A DNA stretch of 64,000 bases. Source: Propionivibrio dicarboxylicus. GTDB lineage: Bacteria; Pseudomonadota; Gammaproteobacteria; Burkholderiales; Rhodocyclaceae. Under the pieces are notes generated by a model. The model was not told the origin of the DNA. It ran no database searches and saw only the letters and a program-made list of their open reading frames with translations. The stretch covers positions 248,001 through 312,000 of the forward strand of contig NZ_FNCY01000001.1 of NCBI RefSeq assembly GCF_900099695.1, given 5' to 3'. How positions within the stretch are numbered: the first letter of the stretch is position 1; every line of letters begins with the position of its first letter. This document shows positions 2,340 to 47,300 of the stretch, in pieces. A program made the position numbers and the translations under genes.

Positions 2340-3227
2340 ATGAGCGACCCCAACGGCCCCAGCCCGGAATTCGACAGCCTTGCCCCATCCATCTCCTTTA
2401 CCCGGCGCAGCTTCATCGTTTCGGCGCTCGGCGCGGGGTTCGCGCTCTCGGTTCAGCCCATCATGGCGCAAACGCTTATCACTACCGATACCGATGGATT
2501 GACCTGCAGCGAGATCAAGATTCCTGTGGCCGATGGCGCCTTGCCGGCCTATTTTGCCCGGCCCAACGCCGGCAAGAAATTTCCGACCATTCTGGTGATT
2601 CAGGAAATATTCGGCGTTCATGAGCACATCAAGGATGTCTGCCGTCGCCTGGCCAAACAAGGCTACCTGGCGATCGCACCCGAACTTTATGCGCGACAGG
2701 GCGATCCGCGCCAATACACCAACATTCAGGAACTCATGAACCAAGTCGTCAGCAAGATCCCGGACGCCCAGGTCATGAGCGATCTGGATGCCTGCACAGC
2801 CTGGGCCAAGGGCAATGGCGGCGACGAAACACGCCTCGGCATCACCGGCTTCTGCTGGGGAGGGCGCATTACCTGGCTTTATTCCGCGCACAATCCTCAA
2901 GTCCGTGCGGGCGTTGCCTGGTACGGACGCATCGTCGGAGACAAGAACGCCTTGACCCCGCGACACCCGATCGACGTCGGCGCCGCCCTTCACGGTCCGG
3001 TACTCGGACTTTATGGCGGACAGGATCAAGGCATTCCGCTCGATACCGTCGCAGCCATGCGCGGCGTACTCGCCAGCGGAACCACCGCCAGCAAGGAATC
3101 TGCAATTGTCATATATGACGACGCGCCTCATGCCTTCCATGCCGACTATCGCCCAAGCTACCGCAAGGAAGCTGCGGAGGATGGCTGGAAGCGGTTACTG
3201 GCGTGGTTCAAGGCCAACGGAATCTGA
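2340..3227 (+). CDS. Dienelactone hydrolase family protein, Tat-exported
   Basis: About 295 residues. A twin-arginine signal is visible (TRRSF at 21-25, then a hydrophobic run ending IMAQT), so the enzyme is probably exported folded to the periplasm. The alpha/beta-hydrolase domain carries a Cys nucleophile in GFCWGG (Cys172), a likely catalytic Asp229 (GGQDQ) and His264 (APHAF), the Cys-Asp-His triad of the dienelactone hydrolase/carboxymethylenebutenolidase family. Tat-exported members are common in proteobacteria, but their substrates are mostly unknown, so the chlorocatechol pathway should not be assumed; no catechol genes are near. The start ATG 2340 is chosen over the upstream in-frame extension because AGGAG lies seven bases before it. 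Confidence 0.9.
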
Positions 3228-43695: not shown

Positions 43696-44178
43696 ATGAC
43701 TTGGGAATTTTGGGGACGCTGCCTCGCTCGACTCCAGGCAGATTTCCGGGGCACCTTTCTTCCGTCCCGTCTGCGGCGCTTGCGTCCAGGCGCCGACGAC
43801 ATTCAAACGGTTATCGCCAGGCTAGGCCCGGCAACAGCCTCCTGGCAAACCGACGGCGGAAGCGTGATGGAATTTGCGACGATGCCCTTCGGTACACAGA
43901 ATTTCATGCTCGACTTCGATCGAAACGGGATCTTGCTCGGCATCCGGAACGCGCTGACCGACGCCAATTTCGCCCGGATTGTCGTTGGCATGGATCACGA
44001 AGACGTCCGGCGCGTGCTGGGAAATCCCGCCCACACGATCCGGTTCCCGCTCAAGCACGAGGAGGTGTGGGATTGGAAAACCGGGGACGACGCCGGAGAA
44101 ACGACCTTCTTCAACGTCCATTTCGACGACGACGGGCAGGTCTGCGCGACGAGTCGTCACCGGGAGCCCCGCGGCTAA
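43696..44178 (+). CDS. Hypothetical protein with two BamE/SmpA-like repeats, no signal peptide
   Basis: A 160-residue protein. Residues about 30-85 (ADDIQTVIARLGPATASWQTDGGSVMEFATMPFGTQNFMLDFDRNGILLGIR) and about 90-150 (MDHEDVRRVLGNPAHTIRFPLKHEEVWDWKT...TFFNVHFDDDGQVCATSR) share the order helix, LG-P turn, aromatic-rich strands, which is the SmpA/OmlA (BamE) pattern twice over. BamE itself is a lipoprotein, but this chain begins MTWEFWGRCLARLQ and has no signal peptide or lipobox. Function unknown. ATG 43696 is the most likely start, with only a weak ribosome site. Confidence 0.65.
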   Translation: MTWEFWGRCLARLQADFRGTFLPSRLRRLRPGADDIQTVIARLGPATASWQTDGGSVMEFATMPFGTQNFMLDFDRNGILLGIRNALTDANFARIVVGMDHEDVRRVLGNPAHTIRFPLKHEEVWDWKTGDDAGETTFFNVHFDDDGQVCATSRHREPRG

Positions 44179-44212
44179 ACGCCCGCAACCTCACAAAGAA
44201 CACCGCTTTGGC

Positions 44213-44241
44213 TTGACAATCAATGGTTTGGCGCGTAAATT
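44213..44241 (+). promoter_or_regulatory. Sigma-70 promoter of metH leader
   Basis: TTGACA (44213-44218), exactly 17 bases, TAAATT (44236-44241). Transcription should begin near 44248, leaving about 150 bases of leader before metH. Confidence 0.75.
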
Positions 44242-44244
44242 CCC

Positions 44245-44399
44245 GTGCCTGTCCTGGGCTTATTCCCCGACACCGCGCCGATTTGAAGTTCAGCTTGCGG
44301 GCGCGCAAAAAATCCGGCTAAAGCGGGCTTCAATGCAGCGATTCCGAACCCGTTCGCCACGAAGCCGAACGGGTTTTTATTTTTTGAGGTTCCTTCATC
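44245..44399 (+). ncRNA. Structured metH leader; candidate riboswitch/attenuator or short RNA
   Basis: The leader can fold into a stem closed by GTG/CAC and GGG/CCC (44245-44273), a second hairpin CGCGCC (44274-44279) with GGCGCG (44300-44305), and the terminator at 44347-44385. GCGGG (44323-44327) could pair with CCCGT (44349-44353) and hold back the terminator's 5' arm, though this pairing is short. I do not recognise the SAH, SAM or cobalamin riboswitch consensus in it. Confidence 0.5.
44347..44385 (+). terminator. Intrinsic terminator immediately before the metH ribosome site
   Basis: Perfect 10-bp stem AACCCGTTCG (44347-44356) with CGAACGGGTT (44366-44375), nine-base loop, then TTTTTATTTTTT. 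The metH ribosome site GAGG starts at 44386, so read-through is needed to express metH from the upstream promoter. Confidence 0.9.
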
Positions 44400-47300
44400 A
44401 TGCAGCCTGACCGTACCGCCGAACTCGCTTCCTTGTTGCAAGACCGACTGCTCATCCTCGATGGCGCCATGGGAACGATGATCCAGCGCCGTCAACTGCA
44501 GGAAGCCGACTACCGCGGCAGCCGTTTTGCCGATCACCCGTCGGATCTCAAGGGCAACAATGACCTCCTCCTGCTCACCCGCCCCGACGTCATCCGGGAT
44601 ATTCATGGCGAATATCTTGCGGCGGGTGCCGATATCGTCGAAACCTGCACGTTCAACGCGACCTCGCTATCTCAGGCCGACTACAAGCTCGAACACCTCG
44701 CCTATGAACTCAACGTTGCCGGCGCCCGGCTCGCCCGAGAGGTCTGCGACGAGTTCAGCGCCAAGACACCGGCCAAGCCGCGCTTCGTCGCCGGCGTCGT
44801 CGGTCCGACCTCGCGCACCGCATCAATCTCTCCGGACGTCAACGACCCAGGCTACCGCAACGTCAGCTTCGAGCAACTCGTCGAGGCCTATACCGACGCC
44901 ATCCGCGGCCTGACCGACGGCGGCGCCGACATCCTGCTGGTCGAGACCGTCTTCGACACACTCAACGCCAAGGCGGCACTGTTCGCCATCGAGCAGTTTT
45001 TCGACACGATCGGCCGCCGCTGGCCGGTCATGATTTCGGGAACGATCACCGATGCCTCCGGCCGTACGCTATCGGGACAAACCGCCGAAGCTTTCTGGAA
45101 TTCGCTGCGCCACATCAAGCCGCTTTCCTTCGGCCTCAACTGCGCACTCGGCGCCAAGGAATTGCGTCAATACGTCGAAGAGCTGGCCCGGGTATGCGAC
45201 TGCCACGTCTCGGCGCATCCCAACGCCGGGCTGCCGAATGCGTTCGGCGGCTACGACGAAACACCCGACATGCTTGCCGATGAAATCGCCGACTGGGCGC
45301 GCCACGGCTTCGTCAATATCGTCGGCGGCTGTTGCGGCACCTCGCCGGACCATATCGCCGCGATCGGGCACAAGGTCGCCGGACTCGCCCCGCGGACTCT
45401 CCCGGACATCGAGAAGAAGCTCCGCCTGTCGGGTCTCGAGCCCTTCAACGTTGGCAAGGACTCGCTCTTCGTCAATGTCGGCGAGCGCACCAACGTAACC
45501 GGCTCGCGCGCATTTGCGCGCATGATCCTTGAAGGGCGCTTCGACGACGCCCTGGCGGTTGCCCGGCAGCAGGTCGAGAACGGCGCCCAGGTCATTGACA
45601 TCAACATGGACGAGGCGATGCTCGATTCGCGCGCGGCGATGGAGCGCTTCCTCAAGCTGATCGCCTCCGAGCCGGACATTTCGCGCGTGCCGGTAATGAT
45701 CGACTCGTCGAAGTGGGAGGTCATCGAAGCCGGCTTGCGCTGCATCCAGGGCAAGGGCATCGTCAATTCGATCTCGATGAAGGAAGGCGAAGCGAGCTTC
45801 CTCGACCACGCCCGCCTCGCCCTGCGTTACGGCGCCGCCGTCGTCGTCATGGCCTTCGACGAAAAAGGCCAGGCGGACACCTACACCCGCAAGATCGAAA
45901 TCTGCCAGCGCGCCTATACGCTGCTGACCGGCATCGGCTTTCCGGCGGAAGACATCATCTTCGATCCGAACATCTTCGCCATCGCCACCGGCATCGAAGA
46001 GCACAACAACTATGCGGTCGACTTCATCGAAGCCTGTCGCTGGATCCGCGCCAATCTCCCGTACGCCCAGATCTCCGGTGGCGTCTCCAACGTCTCGTTC
46101 AGCTTCCGCGGTAACGACGCCGTACGCGAGGCGATCCACACGGTATTCCTCTACCATGCGGTCCGCGCCGGCCTTTCGATGGGCATCGTCAACGCCGGCA
46201 TGCTCGGTGTTTATGACGATCTCGACCCCGAACTGCGCGCCCGGGTCGAAGCGGTCGTGCTCAATACCGCCTCCGACGCCGGCGAAAAGCTCGTCGAATT
46301 CGCGCAGACGGTCAAGGAAGGCAAGGCCAAGGAGAGCGGCGTCGACCTCGCCTGGCGCGCCCAACCCGTCGAGAAGCGGCTCGAACACGCGCTGGTCAAG
46401 GGCATTACCGATTTCGTCGTCGCCGACACCGAAGAGTGCCGCGCCGGGCTGGCCGCGCAAGGCCGTCCGCCGCTTGGCGTCATCGAAGGGCCTCTGATGA
46501 GCGGGATGAACGTCGTCGGCGACCTGTTCGGCGCAGGCAAGATGTTCCTACCGCAAGTCGTCAAGTCGGCGCGCGTCATGAAACAGGCCGTCGCTCACCT
46601 CGTTCCCTTCATCGAGGAAGAGAAGCGACGCAGCGGTGCCGCCAGCAAGGGGCGCATCGTCCTCGCCACGGTCAAGGGCGATGTCCATGACATCGGCAAG
46701 AACATTGTCGGTGTCGTGCTCGGCTGCAACGGCTACGAAGTCATCGATATCGGCGTCATGGTCTCCTGTGACAAGATTCTCAACGCGGCGCGCGAACACG
46801 GCGCCCAGGCGATCGGTCTCTCCGGCCTGATCACGCCGTCGCTCGAGGAGATGACGCACGTCGCTGCCGAAATGCAGCGTCAGGGCTTCGAGGTGCCGCT
46901 CCTCATCGGCGGCGCGACGACCAGCCGCGCCCACACAGCGATCAAGATCGCCCCCAGCTACGATGGCACCGTCATCTACGTTCCCGACGCTTCGCGCGCG
47001 GTTGGCGTCGTCACCCGCCTGCTGTCGGAAGAGCAGTCGGCCGACTACCGCCGCGAGATTGCCGACGACTACGCGCGCGTGCGCGAGCAGCACGGCGCCA
47101 AAAAGGGCGTGACGCTGGTCACGCTCGCCGATGCGCGCGCCAATCGTTTGGCCTGGAACGAAGACGCCGGCTACCGTCCGGTCGCACCGGCCGAACCCGG
47201 CCGTCATGTCCTGCGCGACATCGACCTGGCGACGCTCGCGCGCCATATCGACTGGGGCCCGTTCTTCCAGACCTGGGACCTGGCCGGCGCGTTCCCGCGC

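Follow-up and report, generated by a model that had tools for sequence, protein, structure and literature searches.

The leader of metH in the 64-kb stretch of DNA analysed here (which we refer to as the window) very likely carries a SAM-II riboswitch whose expression platform terminates transcription and which acts as an OFF switch for metH. With nearly the same confidence, we assign this leader, the orphan metXZ RNA and the Rfam family RF02424 (annotated on the wrong strand) to one beta-proteobacterial SAM-II subtype, which mostly scores below the Rfam cut-off and governs metX, metZ, metH and, in some genomes, metK. The window element is an ordinary SAM-II member with metH as its target, as published work on SAM-II already covers the class, its promoters and its terminators. 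Corbino 2005 defined the class, reported that SAM is bound and SAH discriminated against, gave its OFF logic and noted near-consensus promoters and terminators, with Bordetella in one figure legend (PMC1273637), and terminator-linked SAM-II in beta-proteobacteria has been published since 2007 (Barrick and Breaker, PMC2258182).

Identification of a SAM-II aptamer upstream of metH

The match to RF00521 spans the full length of the model, and no other Rfam family reaches its gathering threshold anywhere in the window (Table 1); a permissive Rfam scan of the leader alone (44150-44420) returned it with an E-value of 5.9e-8. The earlier note had considered a new riboswitch class possible and had proposed a covariance search against Rfam, stating that a clear hit to a known family would remove the novelty; the search found exactly such a family, SAM-II, at 40.1 bits against a threshold of 36. 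The leader is just 4 bits above this cut-off, and the best members of the family reach 88.2 bits. At E-values up to 1, Rfam gave no match in the leader to the SAH, cobalamin, SAM-I or SAM-V riboswitch families. Besides SAM_alpha, the permissive scan returned three sub-threshold sRNA families: Bp2_287 on the minus strand, anti-hemB (17.3 bits, gathering score 49.5) and RybB (15.7 bits, gathering score 40), the last two of which were rejected as chance or terminator-like resemblances. Sequence and comparison establish family membership, the conserved core, the promoter, the terminator and the overlap of mutually exclusive strands.

The leader shares with published SAM-II elements a full-length match, P1, the conserved core, an upstream promoter, a terminator and a methionine gene on its 3′ side (PMC1273637, PMC2258182), but differs in its metH target, in belonging to a beta-proteobacterial subtype with a GC-rich P1 and a lower score, and in a start site further 5′ of P1 (28-33 bases, in 19 of 39 metH leaders). 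The SAH riboswitch (RF01057) is a class that likewise governs SAM-cycle genes, reported to include metH in Comamonadaceae (PMC4239095), whereas the metH leader has no match to it and the genome's own single copy (L129, G000:C29:201184-201264, minus strand) stands in front of ahcY.

Table 1 Positions of the leader elements and of metH in the window
Feature	Position	Strand	Support
Sigma-70-type promoter, TTGACA-17-TAAATT	44213-44241	+	Similar site in 27/39 metH leaders
SAM-II aptamer (Rfam RF00521, SAM_alpha)	44265-44342	+	40.1 bits, gathering score 36
P1 hairpin, 44274-44279 × 44300-44305	44274-44305	+	99.0% of cells paired, 96 aptamers
Loop L1: conserved GATTTG 44280-44285, GCTTGC 44293-44298	44280-44298	+	Invariant alignment columns
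P2 5′ strand	44283-44291 and 44293-44296	+	Within loop L1
Conserved GCTAAAG 44317-44323; P2 3′ strand 44321-44333	44317-44333	+	GCTAAA invariant in 96/96
Antiterminator, 44322-44327 × 44349-44354, exclusive with P2 and terminator	44322-44354	+	Minimum-energy fold of 44272-44363
Intrinsic terminator: stem 44346-44356/44366-44376, T-rich run 44374-44385	44346-44385	+	Terminator scan
metH ribosome-binding site GAGG	44386-44389	+	
metH, cobalamin-dependent methionine synthase, 1226 aa	44400-48080	+	Two NCBIfam models

Promoter, terminator and ribosome site of metH

The TTGACA-N17-TAAATT promoter that had been read from the sequence earlier is present, with hexamers at 44213-44218 and 44236-44241 separated by a 17-base spacer and 10 of 12 positions identical to the consensus, where shuffling gives an expectation of 0.4 such sites. 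Transcription of the leader would start near 44248, and about 100 transcribed bases lie between promoter and terminator. Promoter-like sites stand upstream in 27 of the 39 metH leaders; among mononucleotide shuffles they arise in 43 of 780. In 19 of those 27 leaders the site takes the form TTGACA-17-TA(A/G)ATT, with the end of the −10 element 28-33 bases 5′ of P1. Such sites were found in just 7 of 48 metX leaders (39 of 960 shuffles); several metX leaders have TTGACA or TTGACT together with TAACTT, a combination outside the promoter pattern used.

The perfect 10-bp terminator ending at the metH ribosome site, also described before, was recovered as AACCCGTTCG/CGAACGGGTT within 44346-44376 around a loop of 9 bases, and its T-rich run directly adjoins the GAGG. 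A stock terminator scan found no site in the metH leader because its loop limit is 8; our custom scan found the terminator in the window leader, placed one 3′ of the aptamer in 38 of 39 metH leaders (67 of 780 dinucleotide shuffles) and recovered one in 44 of 49 metX leaders (77 of 980 dinucleotide shuffles), where three of the five metX leaders lacking it look cut short by the gene-start estimate. The start codon of metH is the ATG at 44400, and the protein matches NF007024 at 2113.8 bits (cut-off 1497) and TIGR02082 at 1694.3 bits (cut-off 1010.85).

Conservation and covariation of the aptamer

We aligned 96 aptamers, 84 of 103 prepared from the same order (the 19 omitted were truncated, near-duplicate or skipped, with no stated rule) and 12 of 30 loci from a different class of the same phylum, presumably alpha-proteobacteria. 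Twenty-four columns are invariant, and GATTTG and GCTAAA are present in 96 of 96 aptamers in both groups. The comparison of relatives that had been suggested shows that the stems recur, P1 being paired as given in Table 1, with double changes at three of its six pairs and five pair types at its end. P2 would be a pseudoknot between L1 and the 3′ strand, for which 13 pairs with one bulged base are possible in the window RNA; it pairs in 76.5% of cells, with innermost pairs invariant and outer pairs variable and poorly aligned. The two hairpins of the earlier note are better read as the P1 hairpin, which stands, and a probable P2 pseudoknot in place of a second hairpin.

The covariation score of the whole structure is 0.211; shuffles give 0.103, and none of 500 reaches the observed value. 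Percentage paired, this score and the number of cells with a double change (92) are higher than in every one of the 500 shuffles and in each of six slid versions of the structure. In the same 96-aptamer alignment, the number of pairs with a double change and the number of further pair types are not above shuffles (458 and 473 of 500 as high, respectively), and a structure slid by +2 or +3 matches or exceeds the true one in these two counts, one slid version having 6 pairs with a double change against 5 for the true structure. A sub-group of metH leaders (L009, L016, L019, L024, L033 and L042) carries a TCT...AGA insert in L1, and ATTGC replaces CTTGC there.

Distribution of the element

The window's own genome has two RF00521 matches on the same contig, one before metH and one 54.8 kb further before metX, the latter at 30.8 bits, below the cut-off of 36, with a terminator behind it; this metX matches NF047916 at 670.5 bits and is followed by a partial metW. 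A search of this genome with one exact pattern found no tandem-type second aptamer. At E ≤ 0.001, RF00521 occurs in 21 of 28 genomes of the genus (13 above cut-off), 106 of 199 of the family (34), 137 of 300 of the order (52) and 50 of 249 of the phylum (43), and in 0 of 14 control genomes in each search; close relatives were counted separately throughout, so that these counts are of non-independent events. SAM-II lies directly before metH in 15 of the 28 genus genomes, and some, e.g. G012, have metH with no RF00521 match. The motif pattern placed 115 of 116 fetched loci, missing L070, to which Rfam gives 37.2 bits, and by tblastn 115 loci have metX (49), metH (39) or neither (27, two of them at contig ends) behind them.

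A proposed transcriptional OFF switch

The antiterminator pairing claimed earlier (44323-44327 with 44349-44353) exists and extends by one pair (Table 1); its first strand lies inside the P2 3′ strand and its partner inside the 5′ arm of the terminator. The minimum-energy fold of 44272-44363, which ends before the terminator 3′ arm, consists of P1 and the antiterminator. With the 3′ arm included, the fold has the terminator and a P2-like helix, with P1 open because the folding program cannot draw pseudoknots. The folding energy of the leader does not stand out from that of shuffles (z −1.02, with 31 of 200 shuffles equally good; z −1.33 in a second fold), nor does that of the truncated RNA (z +0.76), and folding energy was set aside as evidence of structure. 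As the P2 strand that SAM should lock contains the antiterminator strand, the leader is most likely an OFF switch that acts by transcription termination at ample SAM; binding of SAM by this RNA and the direction of switching are inferred. With little SAM, the nascent RNA would fold into P1 and the antiterminator, which would occupy the terminator 5′ arm and allow polymerase to continue into metH; when SAM is plentiful, its binding would hold the P2 pseudoknot (44321-44333 with L1) and occupy the antiterminator strand, so that the terminator could form and release a transcript of roughly 138 bases. A choice between terminator and antiterminator before metH, with SAM among the candidate ligands, had been proposed from the sequence and fits the SAM-II assignment.

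It is unlikely that the aptamer binds SAM whilst the terminator is a fixed attenuator, with control exerted on RNA stability, on translation or on promoter activity instead of by a terminator switch. This arrangement has a precedent in the S. meliloti metA leader, where, in the published account, a terminator behind SAM-II is not linkable to the aptamer and no SAM-II-driven antiterminator was predictable, and of the two S. meliloti SAM-II copies in that account (Scheuer 2022) one has a predicted SAM-dependent terminator that releases an sRNA (PMC9373788). The antiterminator duplex in the window is also within the shuffle range (p 0.34), in keeping with the earlier description of this pairing as the weak point. 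Against a fixed attenuator, the antiterminator strand sits within the P2 strand and is paired in the minimum-energy nascent fold, and across leaders that are related to one another the duplex is stronger than the average of its shuffles in 36 of 38 metH and 31 of 44 metX cases, though singly significant in just 2 of 38 and 6 of 44, and the pairing was retained for its recurring position, not for its strength. The GAGG lies 53 bases past P2, and direct masking of the ribosome site by P2 is therefore unlikely.

That the main product is a trans-acting short RNA of about 138 bases, with control of metH secondary, we consider highly improbable. A terminated RNA is indeed expected, and S. meliloti makes such RNAs, for which a trans role has been suggested (PMC9373788), but the element is tied to methionine genes in many genomes, the mark of a cis element. 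Of the two products that the earlier note had set as alternatives, a ligand-sensing leader and a free short RNA, the leader holds and the RNA is most readily seen as a by-product of termination. There is only the slightest chance of a new riboswitch class, which the score above Rfam's curated SAM-II threshold speaks against, or of a SAM-II fold sensing SAH, B12 or homocysteine. The score is modest beside the 88.2 bits of the best members, metH itself uses B12, and SAM-I variants with a different ligand have been described (PMC10853860); against this, the core with its 24 invariant columns is common to high-scoring members, the leader scan matched no SAH, cobalamin, SAM-I or SAM-V switch, and the genome keeps a separate SAH riboswitch at ahcY. 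A SAM-responsive SAM-II switch that terminates transcription ahead of metH remains the preferred reading.

The orphan metXZ element as a probable beta-proteobacterial SAM-II subtype

Leyn 2014 reported SAM_alpha, in the genomes that study treats, solely in Rhizobiales and Rhodobacterales, and described an orphan metXZ element before metXW or metZ in beta-proteobacteria, in which pairings 1:4 and 2:6 form a pseudoknot with a terminator behind (PMC4239095). Compared by description, this element shares with ours the two-pairing pseudoknot, the terminator, the taxa and the metX and metZ genes, and differs in having been published as a separate new element, metH not being a target in its description there. 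It is very probably SAM-II, with most members below the Rfam cut-off; our literature search, which covered journals outside subscription, turned up no publication that we recognised as equating the two. SAM_alpha scores 32.1 bits in Nitrosospira sp. Nsp14 (metZ), 29.4 in Methylophilales HTCC2181 (metZ) and 29.8 in Variovorax (metX), all below 36, and 36.9 in Novimethylophilus (metZ), and the genes behind the element in Nitrosospira, Methylophilales HTCC2181 and Variovorax agree with the metXZ groups as published (PMC4239095). Sub-threshold SAM-II copies that match the metXZ topology, genes and taxa were observed at L173, L231, L161 and L210.

A model built from 19 metX leaders, all below the Rfam cut-off (R2), gives the window leader 73.2 bits. 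At E-values no higher than 0.1 it also recovers 29 of the 30 SAM-II loci from the other class, missing L154; two of the 29 are weak (E 0.016 and 0.02). An extra R2 match at window 2854-2911 on the minus strand (E 0.033) was taken as chance. The exact pattern of the beta subtype gave at least 119 stretches with at least 120 elements in named genomes, the genes behind them being metX (at least 48), metZ (at least 23), metH (at least 8), MetY-like or related sulfhydrylase-type genes (at least 5), MetN-like ATPases (at least 4) and metK (at least 1), with no assignment for at least 31; three of the metH labels (28-30% identity), one MetN-like (28%) and two metZ (37-39%) are weak. A metY label for genes of the L099 type was rejected, as their best match above cut-off is a 'cystathionine gamma-synthase family' model and not the MetY model.

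RF02424 and tandem arrangements

RF02424 (Bp2_Cand287_SIPHT, a 'Burkholderia sRNA') matches the same DNA as the window aptamer on the opposite strand (44269-44378, minus), and differs in being annotated as an sRNA on that strand and in scoring 21.9 bits here, far below its gathering score of 70. It occurs in 18 of 120 genomes of the order, one above cut-off, and a SAM-II core lies opposite the RF02424 strand in 12 of 12 fetched loci (L117-L128), so that, judged by sequence, the family looks mis-stranded. L117, the sole match above cut-off at 107.5 bits, contains an additional hairpin and precedes metZ (NF006003, 726.9 bits); its identification as SAM-II rests on the core motif and R2, since SAM_alpha does not list it at E up to 0.05 and R2 matches over its positions 3-35 alone. 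Our confidence in a single subtype is slightly lower because L117 has no SAM_alpha match and the MetY and MetN labels are weaker. At L127 (1552-2433), a MetN-like ABC ATPase is preceded by a SAM-II-like core, whose loop is short, and by a terminator-like hairpin, the protein being closest to TIGR02314 (MetN) but below its cut-off, and SAM_alpha is not listed for this locus.

A second SAM-II-like core lies within 260 bases in at least 14 of 235 elements (L023, L082, L088, L095, L096, L116, L178, L214, L215, L228, L239, L248, L253 and L276), and tandem SAM-II switches are known, with 44 doublets reported (PMC9481103). The order is SAM-II and terminator, then a variant core GAGTTA/GATTTA...ACTTGC...GCTAAA, often before small proteins without a Pfam or NCBIfam match (two tested, an L023-type fragment and the L120 type); L096 precedes a Sel1-repeat protein and L276 precedes metK. 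At L101 (1501-2994), SAM-II stands before metK and a SAH riboswitch behind it.

Implications

For metH, the assignment points to feedback by SAM, sensed by an aptamer of a known class, as the likely regulator. The main value of the analysis lies beyond this assignment, in the clean-up of metXZ and RF02424. If the single-subtype reading is true, one orphan regulatory RNA would be removed from the list, a cut-off and the strand of one family in Rfam would be worth revising, and the low scores could explain why an Rfam-based regulon study of 2014 saw SAM-II in just two alpha-proteobacterial orders.
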